The position numbers and the translations under genes were made by a program. Below, one piece after another: positions 23,821-29,024 of a stretch of 64,000 bases of DNA. This DNA comes from Nocardioides aromaticivorans (GTDB taxonomy: Bacteria > Actinomycetota > Actinomycetes > Propionibacteriales > Nocardioidaceae). The notes below the pieces were generated by a model. That model saw nothing but the letters and a program-made list of their open reading frames with translations. It searched no databases and was not told the origin of the DNA. Each line of letters begins with the position of its first letter. The first letter of the stretch is position 1. The stretch lies in the NCBI RefSeq assembly GCF_013408525.1, contig NZ_JACBZM010000001.1:1240001-1304000 (forward strand). The letters are read 5' to 3'.

Positions 23821-26800
23821 ATGAGCTCTGTCACCGACGACGAGCCCGGGTCCGAGGACTCCGGGCTCGACGAGTCGCGCTCGGGGCGCGGCAAGGGACG
23901 GAGGGGACGGTTGTGGCGCCGCCACGACAAGGAGACCCCCGTCGTCGGTGAGCTCGACGACGACGACCTTCAGGAGCTGCTGCGGCGCAGCCACACCTCC
24001 GGCATGGTCGAGGGCGAGGACGCGCCGGAGCCGACGGCGCCGGCGACCCACGAGCCGGCGGCCGACCTGCTGGACGAGGCCGACCCCGACAACATCGCCG
24101 TGCGCGTGGGCAGCCGCACCGGCCCCGCGGCGACCGCGCCCGATGACGTCGACGACGTCGACTGGCGCGCCCTGGTGTCACCCGCCGAGGAGGCCGCAGA
24201 GGCTGGCGACGTCGACGGGGCCGACGAGCAGGCGGAGGAGCCGAACCTCACCGCCGTGGACGACGCCGTGGGGGACGCCACGGACGAGGTCGAGCCCACC
24301 GCGGACGACGAGGCACCCGTGGACGACGAGGCACCGGTGGACGAGGCACCGGTGGACGAGGCACCCGTCGACGCAGCAGTGGCCGAGGAGGAGTCCCCGG
24401 CAGAGGAGACGCCCGCCGACGAGGCCGACGCCGACGAGCCGGCCGGGACCGACGAGGACGAGCCGGCCGAGGACGTCGACTCCGACGACGGTCCCCAGGG
24501 CGAGTCCGACGACGACTGGGCGGCGTTGATCGACCGCGCCGTCAGCCGCGAGGAGCCGGCACCGACCGAGGGCGGCCTGGCCGCCCGGATGGCGCGGGTC
24601 CGCCAGGACCCGTCGCTCGCCGAGTACAACGGCGAGGCGCCGCCCGCGTGGCCCACGCCCGAGCCGCTCGCCGACAGCGACGGCAGCACCATCGCCGGCG
24701 ACGACTGGTCGGCGATCATCTCCCGCGCGACCCGGCCCGCGGTCGCGGACCCGCTGACCGACCCGCTCACCGGCCCGCTGGAGGAGCAACCCGTCGACGA
24801 CGTGCTCGACGAGGCCGCCGACGCCCCCGCGCCGGACCCGCTCACCGATCCCCTCCCCGACCCGCTGACGGACCCGTACGACGAGCCGTCCGACGCCGAC
24901 GACGCCGGCGACCAGCCTTCGACGGAGGCAGCCCACGACGAGGCCGTCGATGTCGTCCCCGAGGCCCACGGCGACGCAGCCACCGAGGCCGACGAGAAGC
25001 AGGCCGCTCCCGCGCCGGCGGCCCGCGCCACCCCGGGCGACCACCACACGACCGACGAGGAGGCCGGCCAGCGGGTCATCGCGGCCGCCGTCGACGGAGG
25101 TTTCGCCGAGCCGACCCCGGTCCCCGCGCCGAAGGGCCTGGCGCGGCTGCGCCGCCGCAACTCGCCCGGTTCCGCGCCGCGGCCCGAGGCGCGACCGTTG
25201 CAGGACTTCGTCGAGCCGCCCCTGCTCGAGGAGCCGATCCCGGACATCGACGGGCCGCCCGACGTACCGCGTCGCCCCGCCGAGGTCCTCGCCCAGGCCC
25301 GTGCGGAGATCGAGGCCGAGCTGGCCCCGGCCGTCGACACCGACGAGGAGACCGCCGAGGGCGTGACCGAGGCCCCGGCGAACGCCGACGTGGTCGCCGC
25401 CCTGGCTGCCCGGATGCGACGCGACGCGGAGCTGGCCGCCGCCGAGCAGGCCGCGGAGCGGTTCGCCGCCGAGGAGGCCGCCCAGCGGGCCCACGAGGCG
25501 CGTGCCGAGGCCGACCGACTCGCCCAGGAGCAGGCGCAGACCGCCGAGACCGCCCACCGCGCCCGCGCCGAGGCCGAGGAGCTCGCCCGCGCCGAGGCCG
25601 CGGCCCGTGAGGCCGCCGAGCGGGCCGCCCGTGAGCGCGCCGAGCTCGCCGACGCCGAGTCCGCCCGCCGCGAGGAGGCCGAGCGCCACGCCATCGCCCA
25701 GGCCGAGCTGGCCGCGGCCGCCCACGCCGAGCGTGAGGCAGCCGAGGCCCGCGCCCGCGAGCAGGCCGACCTCGCCGCCAGCGCCGCTGCCGCCCGGCAG
25801 GAGGCCGAGACGGCCGCGATCTCGTACGCCGACGCCGCGCGCCAGGCCCACGAGGAGCGCGCAGCGGCCGAGGACCGCGCCCGGGTCATGGCCGAGGCCG
25901 CCGCGGTCAGTGCCGCCGAGCACGCCGAGTTCGCCCGGCGCATGCTGGAGGAGCGCGAGGCCGCCGAACGCACCTCCGCCGAGATCGCCCAGGCACGAGC
26001 CCTCGCCGAGGAGGCCGCCCGCCAGCAGGCCGCGCTCGCGCAGGAGGCCCACCGCGCCGCGGAGGCCGCCGAGGAGCGTGCCCGCCTGCTCGCCGAGCAG
26101 GCAGCGGCCAGCGCCGAGGAGCACGGCGCCCTCGCCCGCCAGGCCGTCGACGAGCGTGCCGCGGCCGAGAACGCCGCGGCCGACCACGCCCGCCTCGCCC
26201 AGGAGGCCCACCAGGCCCGTCAGGCCGCCGAGCAGGCAGCGCTGGAGCAGGCCGAGCTCGCCCGGATCGCGCTCGAGACGGCCGAGGCCGCCGAGCAGCG
26301 CTCCGAGGAGGCCGCCGCGCGCGCCTCCGAGCAGGCCGCCGCGCGCGTCGCCGCCGACGAGTCCGCGGCCCAGCAGGCACAGCGCGCCCAGGAGGCGCAC
26401 GAGGCCCGTCGACTCGCCGAGGAGGCCGCGCGCGAGCAGCTGGAGCTGGCGAGCGAGGCGCAGGCCGCCGCAGCCGCTGCCCACGCCTCCGCCGCCGTGC
26501 TGGCCGAGGAGAAGAAGGCCGCCACCGAGGCGCTCGCGCTGGCCGCCGAGTTCGCGGCCGAGGCCACCCACGCCCGTACCGAGGCCGAGGCCCGCGCCGC
26601 CAGCGCCCTCGCCGAGCTGGAGCAGGCCGCCGCCGCCCACGTCAGCGCCCTCGAGAACGTCCAGGCCGAGCTCGCCCAGGCCCGCGAGGCCGCGCTCGAG
26701 CACGCACGCGCCCGGGTCGAGGCCGAGCAGGCGGCCGCCGAGCAGGCGCAGGCCCGAGCCGCCGCGGAGGCCCGCGCGATGGAGCTGGCCGAGGAGCGCG

Positions 26801-28407
26801 AGCGCGCGCTCGAGGAGGCCACCCGGGCCCGCGAGGCCGCCGAGGCCCGTGCTGCCGAGCTCGCCCGGGCGCGCGAGGAGGCCATCGCCGAAGCGCTCCA
26901 GGCGCGCCTCGACGCCGAGGCCAACGCCACTGCCCAGGCCCAGGCCCGCGCCGACGCCGAGACCCGTGCCAGCGAGCTGGCACGCGAGCGGGAGGAGGCG
27001 CGCGCCGAGGCGGCCCGCGCCCGCGCGGAGGCCGAGGCCAACGCGTTCCACCTCGCCGACCAGGTCGCCCAGATCCGCGCCCGGCTCGACGCGCACGACG
27101 AGGCCACCCCGACACCGGTGCCGGTCGCCCACTTGGCCGCCGCGCCCGTCGAGGAGCCGGTCGTCGAGGAGCCGGTCGCCGAGGAGCCCGTCGCCGAGGA
27201 GCCCGTCGCCGAGGAGCCCGTCGCCGAAGAGCCCGTCGCCGAAGAGCCCGTCGCCGAAGAGCCCGTCGCCGAAGAGCCGGTCGCCGAAGAGCCGGTCGCC
27301 GAAGAGCCCGTCGCCGAGGACCCCGTCGCCGAAGAGCCCGTCGTCGAGGAGCCCGTCGCCGAAGAGCCCGTCGCCGAGGAGCCCGTCCACGAGCCGTACG
27401 TGCTCACCTCGGTCGAGGACGACGGCTCGGATGCCGGCATCCTCGAGGACGACGACTCCTACCTCGTGGCCTCGGCCGAGACCGTGGACACGGCTCCTGA
27501 GACCCCCGTCGCCGAGGAGACGCCCGTCGTCGCGGCCTTCGAGCGGCCGCGATCGCTCGTCGAGCAGTGGCGGGCCGGCATCGAGCCGGTCGACGAGGCC
27601 ATCGAGCCCGAGCCGATCGTCGAGCCCGAGCCCGAGCCGATCGACGAGCCCGAGCCCGAGCCGATCGACGAGGCCATCGAGCCCGAGCCCGAGCCCGAGC
27701 CCATCGTCGAGCCCGAGCCGGAGCCCGAGCCGATCGTCGAGCCCGAGCCCGAGCCGATCGACGAGATCGTCGAGCCCGACGTCGAGCCGGTCGACGAGAT
27801 CGTCGAGCCCGAGGTCGAGCCCGTCGACGAGACGACCGTGATCGAGGTCGCCGAGGAGCCCGCCGCCGAGGAGCCCGCCGCCGAGGAGCCCGTCGCCCTG
27901 CGCAAGCGGCCCTCGCACCACGACGCCGGCCGCGAGGCGGTCGCCGCGTTCGCCGAGGCGCCGGCCACGGACCGCAAGCGGATCCCGTTCCACTCCAAGC
28001 GCGGCAGCGGCAGCCTCGCCGTGGTCGCCCTGCTGATCGCGGTCGCCTGCGCGGCCGTGGTCGGCCAGATGGCGTGGAAGAAGACGATCCTGGACGACAT
28101 CCCGTTGAGCGCGACGCTGACCGCCGTCGCCACCGTCCTCCTGCTCTTCGCCCTGCGGGCGATCAACAGCACCCGGGTCGTGGCCATCGACGAGCACGGC
28201 GTGCTCAAGGTGGCGGTCGGCGACTTCAGCAGCCAGTTCGACCTGACCAGCCCGAACACCAAGATCGAGCTGACCGGGACGCCGGGCTCACGAAACTGGC
28301 GCGTCAACATCCTGCGCCGCAGCATGTCCCCCGTCGCCATCGACAGCCGGATGGTCGACGCCCACACCTTCCTGGAGGCACTGCGGCAATGGCGACCGGA
28401 CCTCTAG
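23821..28407 (+). CDS. Giant coiled-coil membrane scaffold of an unnamed family (member 1)
   Basis: 1528 residues. Order: a short basic stretch (20-40); an acidic, probably disordered region with three copies of a DWxA(L/I)(V/I) motif (W115, W233, W296), EAPVD and TDPL repeats; an Ala/Glu/Arg coiled coil from about 530 to 1095; sixteen EEPVA pentapeptides (1111-1190); an EPEPI-rich stretch (about 1261-1340); two membrane helices (about 1398-1419 and 1430-1448); and a C-terminal domain of about 80 residues ending [18 protein letters not shown]. The two helices put both ends on the same, likely cytoplasmic, side. The C-terminal part is shared with the next gene and with 48548-49681. Function unknown; a membrane-tethered scaffold is inference. 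Confidence 0.8.
27151..27390 (+). repeat. 15-bp minisatellite, 16 units, inside the scaffold gene
   Basis: Sixteen in-frame units of the type GAGGAGCCCGTCGCC encode the pentapeptide EEPVA or close variants (EEPVV, EDPVA). Neighbouring units differ at third positions (GAG/GAA, CCC/CCG). Copy number could change by slippage or recombination without shifting the frame. Confidence 0.9.
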
Positions 28408-29024
28408 GGACTGACCCCGCCGCGGATCCTGCCGCGGACACCGCCGCGCTCGCTGCCGAGCGCGACGCCCTCGCCCGCCGCTGCGCGGACGCCGAGGCCC
28501 GGGTCCGGGACCTGACGGCCGAGCTCGCCGACGCCCACGCCCGGATCGCGTCGTACGAGAACGCCGACGGTGAGCACCTCTCCCTGTTCGACGGTACGAC
28601 GGACGACCGCATCACCGGCGACGGTAGCGACCCGCGGGTGCTGTCGCTCGTCCTGGGCGCCACGGCCGTCGTCTCCGGCATGGTGGCGCTGCTGGCGCTC
28701 GTCAACGGCAAGCTCGGGACGCCGTTCGGCTTCATCATGGTCGCGCTGACCCTCGGCCTCGCCTGGGGCGCGGCCCGGACCAAGGTGGTCCCGGTCGAGG
28801 TCAGCGTCGTGCGCGGGATGGTCTACATCCAGCAGGGTGAGTCGTCGCACCGCTTCGACCTGCGCAAGCCCGAGACCGCCGTCGACATGGTCGGCCGTCC
28901 CGGCGACGCGGGCTGGGCGGTCCACTTCGGCCGCCGCGGGATGGACCCGTTCGTGATCGACGCCTCGATGGTCGACCCGGACCACTTCGCGCGGCAGGTG
29001 CGGGAGTACCGCCCCGAGCTCTGA
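28389..29024 (+). CDS. Small membrane protein of the same unnamed family (member 2)
   Basis: 211 residues starting at ATG 28389, overlapping the previous gene by 19 bp in another frame. It has a short coiled coil (15-56), two membrane helices (84-104 and 110-128) and a C-terminal domain (about 132-211) ending [20 protein letters not shown]. The last 80 residues align with members 1 and 3 at GxPGxxxWxV, MVD and RPEL. The tandem overlap suggests the two products are made together and may interact. No known family was recognised. Confidence 0.8.

Follow-up and report, generated by a model that had tools for sequence, protein, structure and literature searches.

Predicted PH-like membrane proteins with arms of widely varying length encoded in Nocardioides aromaticivorans

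HubP/FimV and TipN are large membrane proteins that serve as polar scaffolds and carry cytoplasmic acidic repeats or a long coil. In YdbS/YdbT and in DdE/DdF, a short protein with two helices and one PH domain is encoded at one locus with a long protein of six helices and three PH domains, and transport of a leaderless bacteriocin needs both DdE and DdF, as set out in the accessible part of the source (PMC8657885). FilP-family proteins have been recorded in Nocardioides sp. (PMC2680258, accessible part). Here we analyzed a stretch of 64,000 nucleotides of Nocardioides aromaticivorans (the window; contig NZ_JACBZM010000001.1, positions 1,240,001 to 1,304,000), which carries three related genes: GIANT (23821–28407; 1528 amino acids), SHORT (28389–29024; 211 amino acids), which overlaps GIANT by 19 bp, and THIRD (48548–49681; 377 amino acids), a paralogue at a second locus about 20 kb downstream. 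All features given below lie on the forward strand of the window. According to our in silico analysis, these proteins belong to a family undescribed in the sources searched, with a C-terminal domain of known fold class by prediction and a function that we infer. A search of the open literature, with most subscription literature outside its scope, returned no account of the family and no experiment on any member.

The shared C-terminal unit

A purpose-written codon-usage gene caller picked GIANT, SHORT and THIRD as genes. This confirms the two overlapping open reading frames (ORFs) that the original prediction had described as a tandem pair, to which THIRD, then overlooked, has to be added. In a search of its own genome, SHORT matched GIANT well beyond chance (E 6.5e-14, 53 bits, 27%) and THIRD (49175–49624, E 4.1e-14). 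A possible fourth paralogue (C1:1986792, L004; E 0.0015) was dropped, as it overlaps a histidine-kinase-like ORF; some relatives have four family matches per genome.

GIANT and SHORT have in common a C-terminal membrane hairpin followed by a domain of about 80 residues, with VREYRPEL among the shared motifs present. We gathered 45 members, the window's three included; the alignment of the C-terminal unit (profile A1) has 40 rows, from the three window proteins and 37 relatives. Three columns of A1 are invariant (G, W and V). These results support the proposal of a common C-terminal unit with differing arms; the helices, however, are not universal, since hydropathy detects none in 5 of 19 GIANT rows (window included).

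In GIANT, the hairpin (28009–28155; residues 1397–1415 and 1427–1445, by hydropathy) precedes a PH-like core (28171–28404; residues 1451–1528, by alignment to SHORT and THIRD). The AlphaFold model of SHORT shows a long N-terminal helix, probably a coiled coil (28428–28577; residues 14–63), the hairpin (28632–28781; helices 82–105 and 112–131) and a PH-like domain (28785–29021; residues 133–211) of six strands and a C-terminal helix, with no strand modelled before the hairpin. In the model of THIRD, the hairpin (49232–49387; helices 229–254 and 258–280) is likewise followed by a PH-like core (49397–49615; residues 284–356). The arms of all three proteins are probably cytoplasmic, because the number of helices is even and no signal peptide is obvious.

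None of the three window proteins had a Pfam or NCBIfam match above cut-off. An Extensin_1 match (25.2 bits against a cut-off of 105) falls on the repeat array of GIANT and was rejected. None of the three matched the PADLOC anti-phage defence profiles at E 0.01, and a sequence search of the PDB with SHORT alone gave a best E of 0.33. The A1 profile had a single formally significant match in the PDB, to a Pizza-type designed repeat protein (E 7.7e-6), with other Pizza designs next; no single stretch was significant alone, and we read the match as a short recurring strand and not as kinship. PF28211.1 is precomputed on two THIRD homologues (P0243 and P0245) and may represent a newly added Pfam family that corresponds to the present one. 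The claim that no named family applies thus holds for the window proteins at curated cut-offs, but the domain itself is PH-like by predicted fold. The models of SHORT and THIRD show a beta sandwich capped by a C-terminal helix, which is one criterion of the PH-like superfamily, and the solved bacterial PH-like folds 3dcx and 3hsa (DUF1696/PHb) align with them; Foldseek returned no match at E 0.001. A PH-like match had been listed in the original prediction as an outcome that would speak against it, but no curated family whose role is settled was matched above cut-off.

Among the structural matches listed for THIRD, 46 of 50 begin at residues 208–222 and extend past the hairpin to at least residue 355, these ranges giving the first and last aligned residue only. 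A candidate strand 1 of its PH-like domain lies before the hairpin (49202–49225; residues 219–226, DSSP strand 222–224), and its F224 is invariant in 57 sequences. The candidate strand 1 of GIANT (27976–28002), just before the hairpin, is defined by sequence pattern only. A phenylalanine or tyrosine stands close before helix 1 in 12 of the 14 GIANTs that have a hairpin, in 14 of 17 THIRDs, all 3 members from other genera and none of 9 SHORTs, in a span set after the rows were seen and with a chance of about 0.10 per protein from arm composition. Four of the five hairpin-less GIANTs have an F-containing segment 9–13 residues before strand 2, for example LTVRTFKPEDG...TVTVTEEGVLDV. In the hairpin-less members, strand 1 would stand directly before strand 2. 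On the simplest account, a membrane hairpin interrupts a PH fold between its first two strands; this hairpin would have been cut out in some GIANTs, and strand 1 would have been lost in SHORT. Weighing against this account, the modelled strand 1 of THIRD is only three residues long, the aromatic residue is missing in 5 of 34 hairpin-bearing rows other than SHORT, and the hairpin-less GIANT L061 is also without it.

If the hairpin does sit within the PH fold, the description of two-helix bacterial PH families as lacking strand 1 would have an explanation. There would also be a route by which a soluble PH domain turns into a membrane protein or vice versa, for which the natural hairpin-less members serve as an internal control. 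A bolder version, which we regard as unlikely, is that the "missing" strand of these two-helix families lies beyond the hairpin, that the hairpin can be gained or cut out in evolution, and that strand 1 of GIANT completes SHORT in trans by donor-strand pairing, giving an obligate membrane heteromer with a rod of about 86 nm. Separately, in the bPH_2 proteins of relatives (L119–L126), all 8 that were read carry a hydrophobic segment containing RTH (TRTH in 7) directly ahead of the membrane hairpin. This segment is possibly a strand 1 upstream of the hairpin there too.

Distribution, loci and gene overlap

With SHORT as query, 24 of 58 genomes matched (own included), all in one of the 8 genera sampled. 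Within the taxonomic family, the A1 profile matched 98 of 245 genomes (E 0.001), which belong to 4 of the 26 genera; at class rank it matched 31 of 394 genomes at E 0.01 (own included). Sixteen of the class-rank matches reach E 2.5e-7 or better and all are from the same taxonomic family, that of G164 covering the hairpin only; the 15 weaker ones (1e-4 to 1e-2, two in the same family) are all partial and were not counted as members. As the scans scored 10 or 16 candidates per genome, absences are soft. A scan of contigs with SHORT gave a match in Nocardioides sp. Root190, and the named homologues (the best 120 of 188, the best 120 of 251 and 99 of 99) are from Nocardioides, Pimelobacter simplex or Nocardioidaceae. 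Among the matches listed, homologues mostly bear the label "hypothetical"; isolated ones are annotated as "PspA/IM30", "DUF2244 domain-containing" or "PH domain-containing". Homologues thus occur in many strains, but convincing members appear confined to one taxonomic family, and the spread across Actinobacteria that had been suggested for checking was not found.

At 34 places, stretches between 4.6 and 20 kb long were gene-called and labelled by similarity to the genes of the window, the GNAT, hydrolase, kinase and FUR labels coming from Pfam. Locus A consists of a GNAT gene, which we take to be mshD-like, GIANT, sometimes SHORT, an alpha/beta hydrolase gene on the other strand, a polyphosphate kinase gene and PhoU/Pit/Pst genes, of which Pit and Pst are presumed from homology. 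Locus B consists of a FUR-family gene, THIRD, a GNAT gene and further conserved genes. In a maximum-likelihood tree of 48 rows, including three from two other genera, locus A is split from locus B at 99/98, SHORT forms a single clade at 99/98, and the other genera fall inside locus B. SHORT was found in 9 examined genomes (window included), always immediately downstream of GIANT. From the tree and this position, SHORT is most simply explained as a tandem duplicate that dropped the long arm.

The overlap of the two genes is conserved. Six of 9 GIANT–SHORT pairs with called starts overlap by exactly 19 bp (window included); in L042, the called start of SHORT lies 11 bp past GIANT, but an in-frame ATG is present at the 19-bp position, and the remaining pairs show one 4-bp overlap and one 10-bp gap. 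Ten nucleotides upstream of the SHORT start, GGAGG is found in 5 of the 6 pairs with 19-bp overlap and CGAGG in the sixth; in the window, this candidate ribosome-binding site (28374–28378) lies inside GIANT. No promoter-like site was found in 23500–29200. Coupled translation of GIANT and SHORT is likely and fits the conserved overlap.

A link of GIANT to phosphate was considered in 12 genomes of the same genus that gave no match to the SHORT query; the thirteenth such genome (G017) was left out. Seven of the 12 keep the GNAT and polyphosphate kinase genes with no GIANT between them, and we therefore read the position as incidental and rejected the link. In three others the kinase is not in the stretch, and the G010 contig terminates in a coil-like ORF. 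In G008, an 866-residue alanine-rich coil (L099:4298–6898) adjoins polyphosphate kinase at locus A; by the profiles used, it has neither a hairpin nor a PH-like domain. G023 has a 1695-residue ORF between Pit-like and PstB-like genes (L110), in which the profiles used detect no family member. Beside THIRD, the gene at 50288–50923 of the window is conserved in many relatives; it has no Pfam match at 1e-5 and putatively encodes a thioesterase.

Arms and their motifs

GIANT runs from a basic N-terminus through an acidic disordered arm with tryptophan motifs, an alanine-heptad coil and an acidic repeat arm to the hairpin and PH-like domain. Its basic-aromatic N-terminal motif lies at 23887–23922 (residues 23–34); by eye, 12 of 17 locus-A proteins with a called start have W next to R or K within the first 35 residues or so. 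The tryptophan motif is present as DWAALIDR (24514–24537; residues 232–239) and DWSAIISR (24703–24726; residues 295–302). Two copies of the pattern DWxx[ILVF][ILV]xR occur in each of 5 related GIANTs out of 33 arms (10 matches in total) and none in the other arms, with a shuffled mean of 0.03.

The proline-free coil of 577 residues (25378–27108; residues 520–1096) is rich in Ala (40%), Glu (19%) and Arg (12%), and its alanines recur with a period of 3.51. The strongest alanine period is 3.50–3.52 in 15 of 16 locus-A GIANTs longer than 550 residues, the exception being L056 with a peak at 16.76. Pairs of R or K with E at i+4 are three times as frequent in the GIANT coil as after shuffling. Period and pairing fit an alanine-cored coiled coil, and a stabilised single helix as well. 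The arms flanking the coil are acidic. Behind it lie a tandem 15-bp repeat (27150–27387; 15.9 copies at 93%), encoding units of the EEPVA type, and further acidic repeats of the PEPEPID type (27582–27839; overlapping rows with units of 12, 24 and 33 bp).

The N-terminal motif of THIRD, MGSNDEFGPDTETIRAWLAKRATYAKDARVI (48548–48640), with a predicted helix at residues 10–31, is conserved: 11 positions between residues 6 and 24 are at least 90% conserved in 57 sequences, with the near-invariant consensus DEFGPDTxxIRxWLxxRxTY, and several diverged THIRDs keep a WLAHR-like core (by eye). A single search found no second occurrence in the own genome. We rejected the idea of an FtsZ mimic, as the C-terminus of the own FtsZ, DDLDVPDFLK, is not similar. 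Further along the arm, THIRD has GRSVLDAL (48827–48853) and GRSVVDAL (48917–48943). One or two copies of GRSV[LV]xAL are found in many THIRD orthologues, and the GRSV pattern gives 6 matches in 5 of 33 arms against 0.23 after shuffling. A locus-B member of 2365 residues from another genus (G138, L116:820–7917) has a long acidic Pro/Ala-rich arm with recurring blocks of the TETEQPSEDT type.

Such repeats raise the question of whether the arms are largely neutral low-complexity sequence, produced by repeat slippage in a GC-rich genome, with only the small domain mattering. The near-exact 15-bp array fits this explanation, as do arm lengths across the family, which range from almost none to more than 2000 residues with loss or replacement between orthologues. 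We consider it improbable: both the heptad periodicity and the i+4 pattern depart strongly from those of shuffled sequence, the coil of G008 survives where the domain is lost, and the N-terminus of THIRD is nearly invariant.

A possible scaffold and its relation to known systems

We favour, with moderate confidence, a membrane-tethered coiled-coil scaffold in which GIANT and SHORT co-assemble, because a PH-like membrane anchor, a very long rod, acidic arms with motifs and repeats and a probably co-translated short partner come together. GIANT and SHORT would be two subunits of one cytoplasmic scaffold, and THIRD a paralogue with other clients. Each protein would be anchored at the cytoplasmic face by the hairpin belonging to its predicted PH-like domain. 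These domains would dock proteins or oligomerise rather than bind phosphoinositides, to judge from what the accessible part of PMC2817789 says of bacterial PH domains. If the 577-residue rod of GIANT forms a single unbroken helix, it would be about 86 nm long, taking 0.149 nm per residue, and would be flanked on either side by a flexible acidic arm. From their conservation, the motifs DWxxIIxRA in GIANT and DEFGPDTxxIRxWL and GRSVLDAL in THIRD may recruit clients. SHORT would be made from the GIANT message by coupled translation and join the assembly through its hairpin, PH-like domain and short coil, where it could set the subunit ratio or cap the assembly. If this is right, a soil actinobacterial lineage possesses a giant coiled-coil scaffold of its own, anchored in the membrane, whose conserved two-gene unit and defined client-like motifs lend themselves to direct testing.

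The original prediction, "scaffold or sensor", is thus supported in part and still conditional. On the sensor side, the PH-like domain would sense the state of the membrane or of a protein and the long arms would relay it to clients, as the highly conserved domain residues (PG, W and RP) and the client-like arm motifs might suggest; however, a scan confined to the three full-length window proteins gave no match to an enzymatic or DNA-binding family, and we find this reading doubtful. Least probable is a transport or export accessory complex of the YdbS/YdbT kind, an unequal tandem pair of membrane PH proteins with the arms as mere tethers: although the short/long layout resembles YdbS/YdbT and DdE/DdF as far as PMC8657885 describes them in its accessible part, and the presumed Pit and Pst genes are only a few kb away from locus A, GIANT contains a single hairpin and a single PH-like domain instead of three, the neighbours that were labelled or scanned include no recognised bacteriocin-type gene, the own genome has 5 separate bPH_2 stretches, and the phosphate genes are kept in genomes without GIANT.

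Compared with described families, DUF2244 (PF10003), which comprises integral membrane proteins within the bacterial PH group, comes close. At E up to 10, its profile matches 5 of the 40 A1 rows, the best with E 2.3e-5 and 24.6 bits, and in the 3 of these 5 rows that were viewed singly, two membrane helices and then the PH-like core are in register (L060, 17–120 on profile positions 13–117; L047, 12–110 on 12–109; L065, 16–113 on 12–109). However, none of the proteins scanned reached its 27-bit cut-off, two THIRD homologues scored 12.1 and 15.2 bits, the window proteins gave no match at E 1, and the 138-position model is without coil or acidic arm, unlike GIANT. No DUF2244 protein proper was detected in the 30 genomes searched, own included. 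Other weak matches of the A1 rows, among 25 of 53 families listed, included DUF6232 (matched by 5 of 40 rows; best E 0.048) and bPH_10 (by 2 of 40; best E 0.27). The bPH_2/DUF304 proteins (PF03703; YdbS, YdbT) share a membrane hairpin with a bacterial PH domain and the tandem layout (PMC8657885, accessible part), but the three window proteins do not match their profile at E up to 1.

HubP/FimV and TipN differ from GIANT in the number and order of helices. Scy has a variant coiled-coil repeat, whereas that of GIANT is a plain heptad. FilP, Scy and other actinobacterial cytoskeletal proteins are long cytoplasmic coiled coils, like GIANT, but the accessible part of PMC2680258 mentions no membrane anchor. 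DUF1696/PHb domains (3dcx, 3hsa) form rings and, in the accessible part of PMC2817789, DUF1696 is the single one among those DUF families that lacks a transmembrane prediction. What looks new beside these systems is a hairpin that seems to interrupt a PH fold between its strands 1 and 2, together with the 577-residue alanine-heptad coil and the acidic repeat-motif arms of GIANT.

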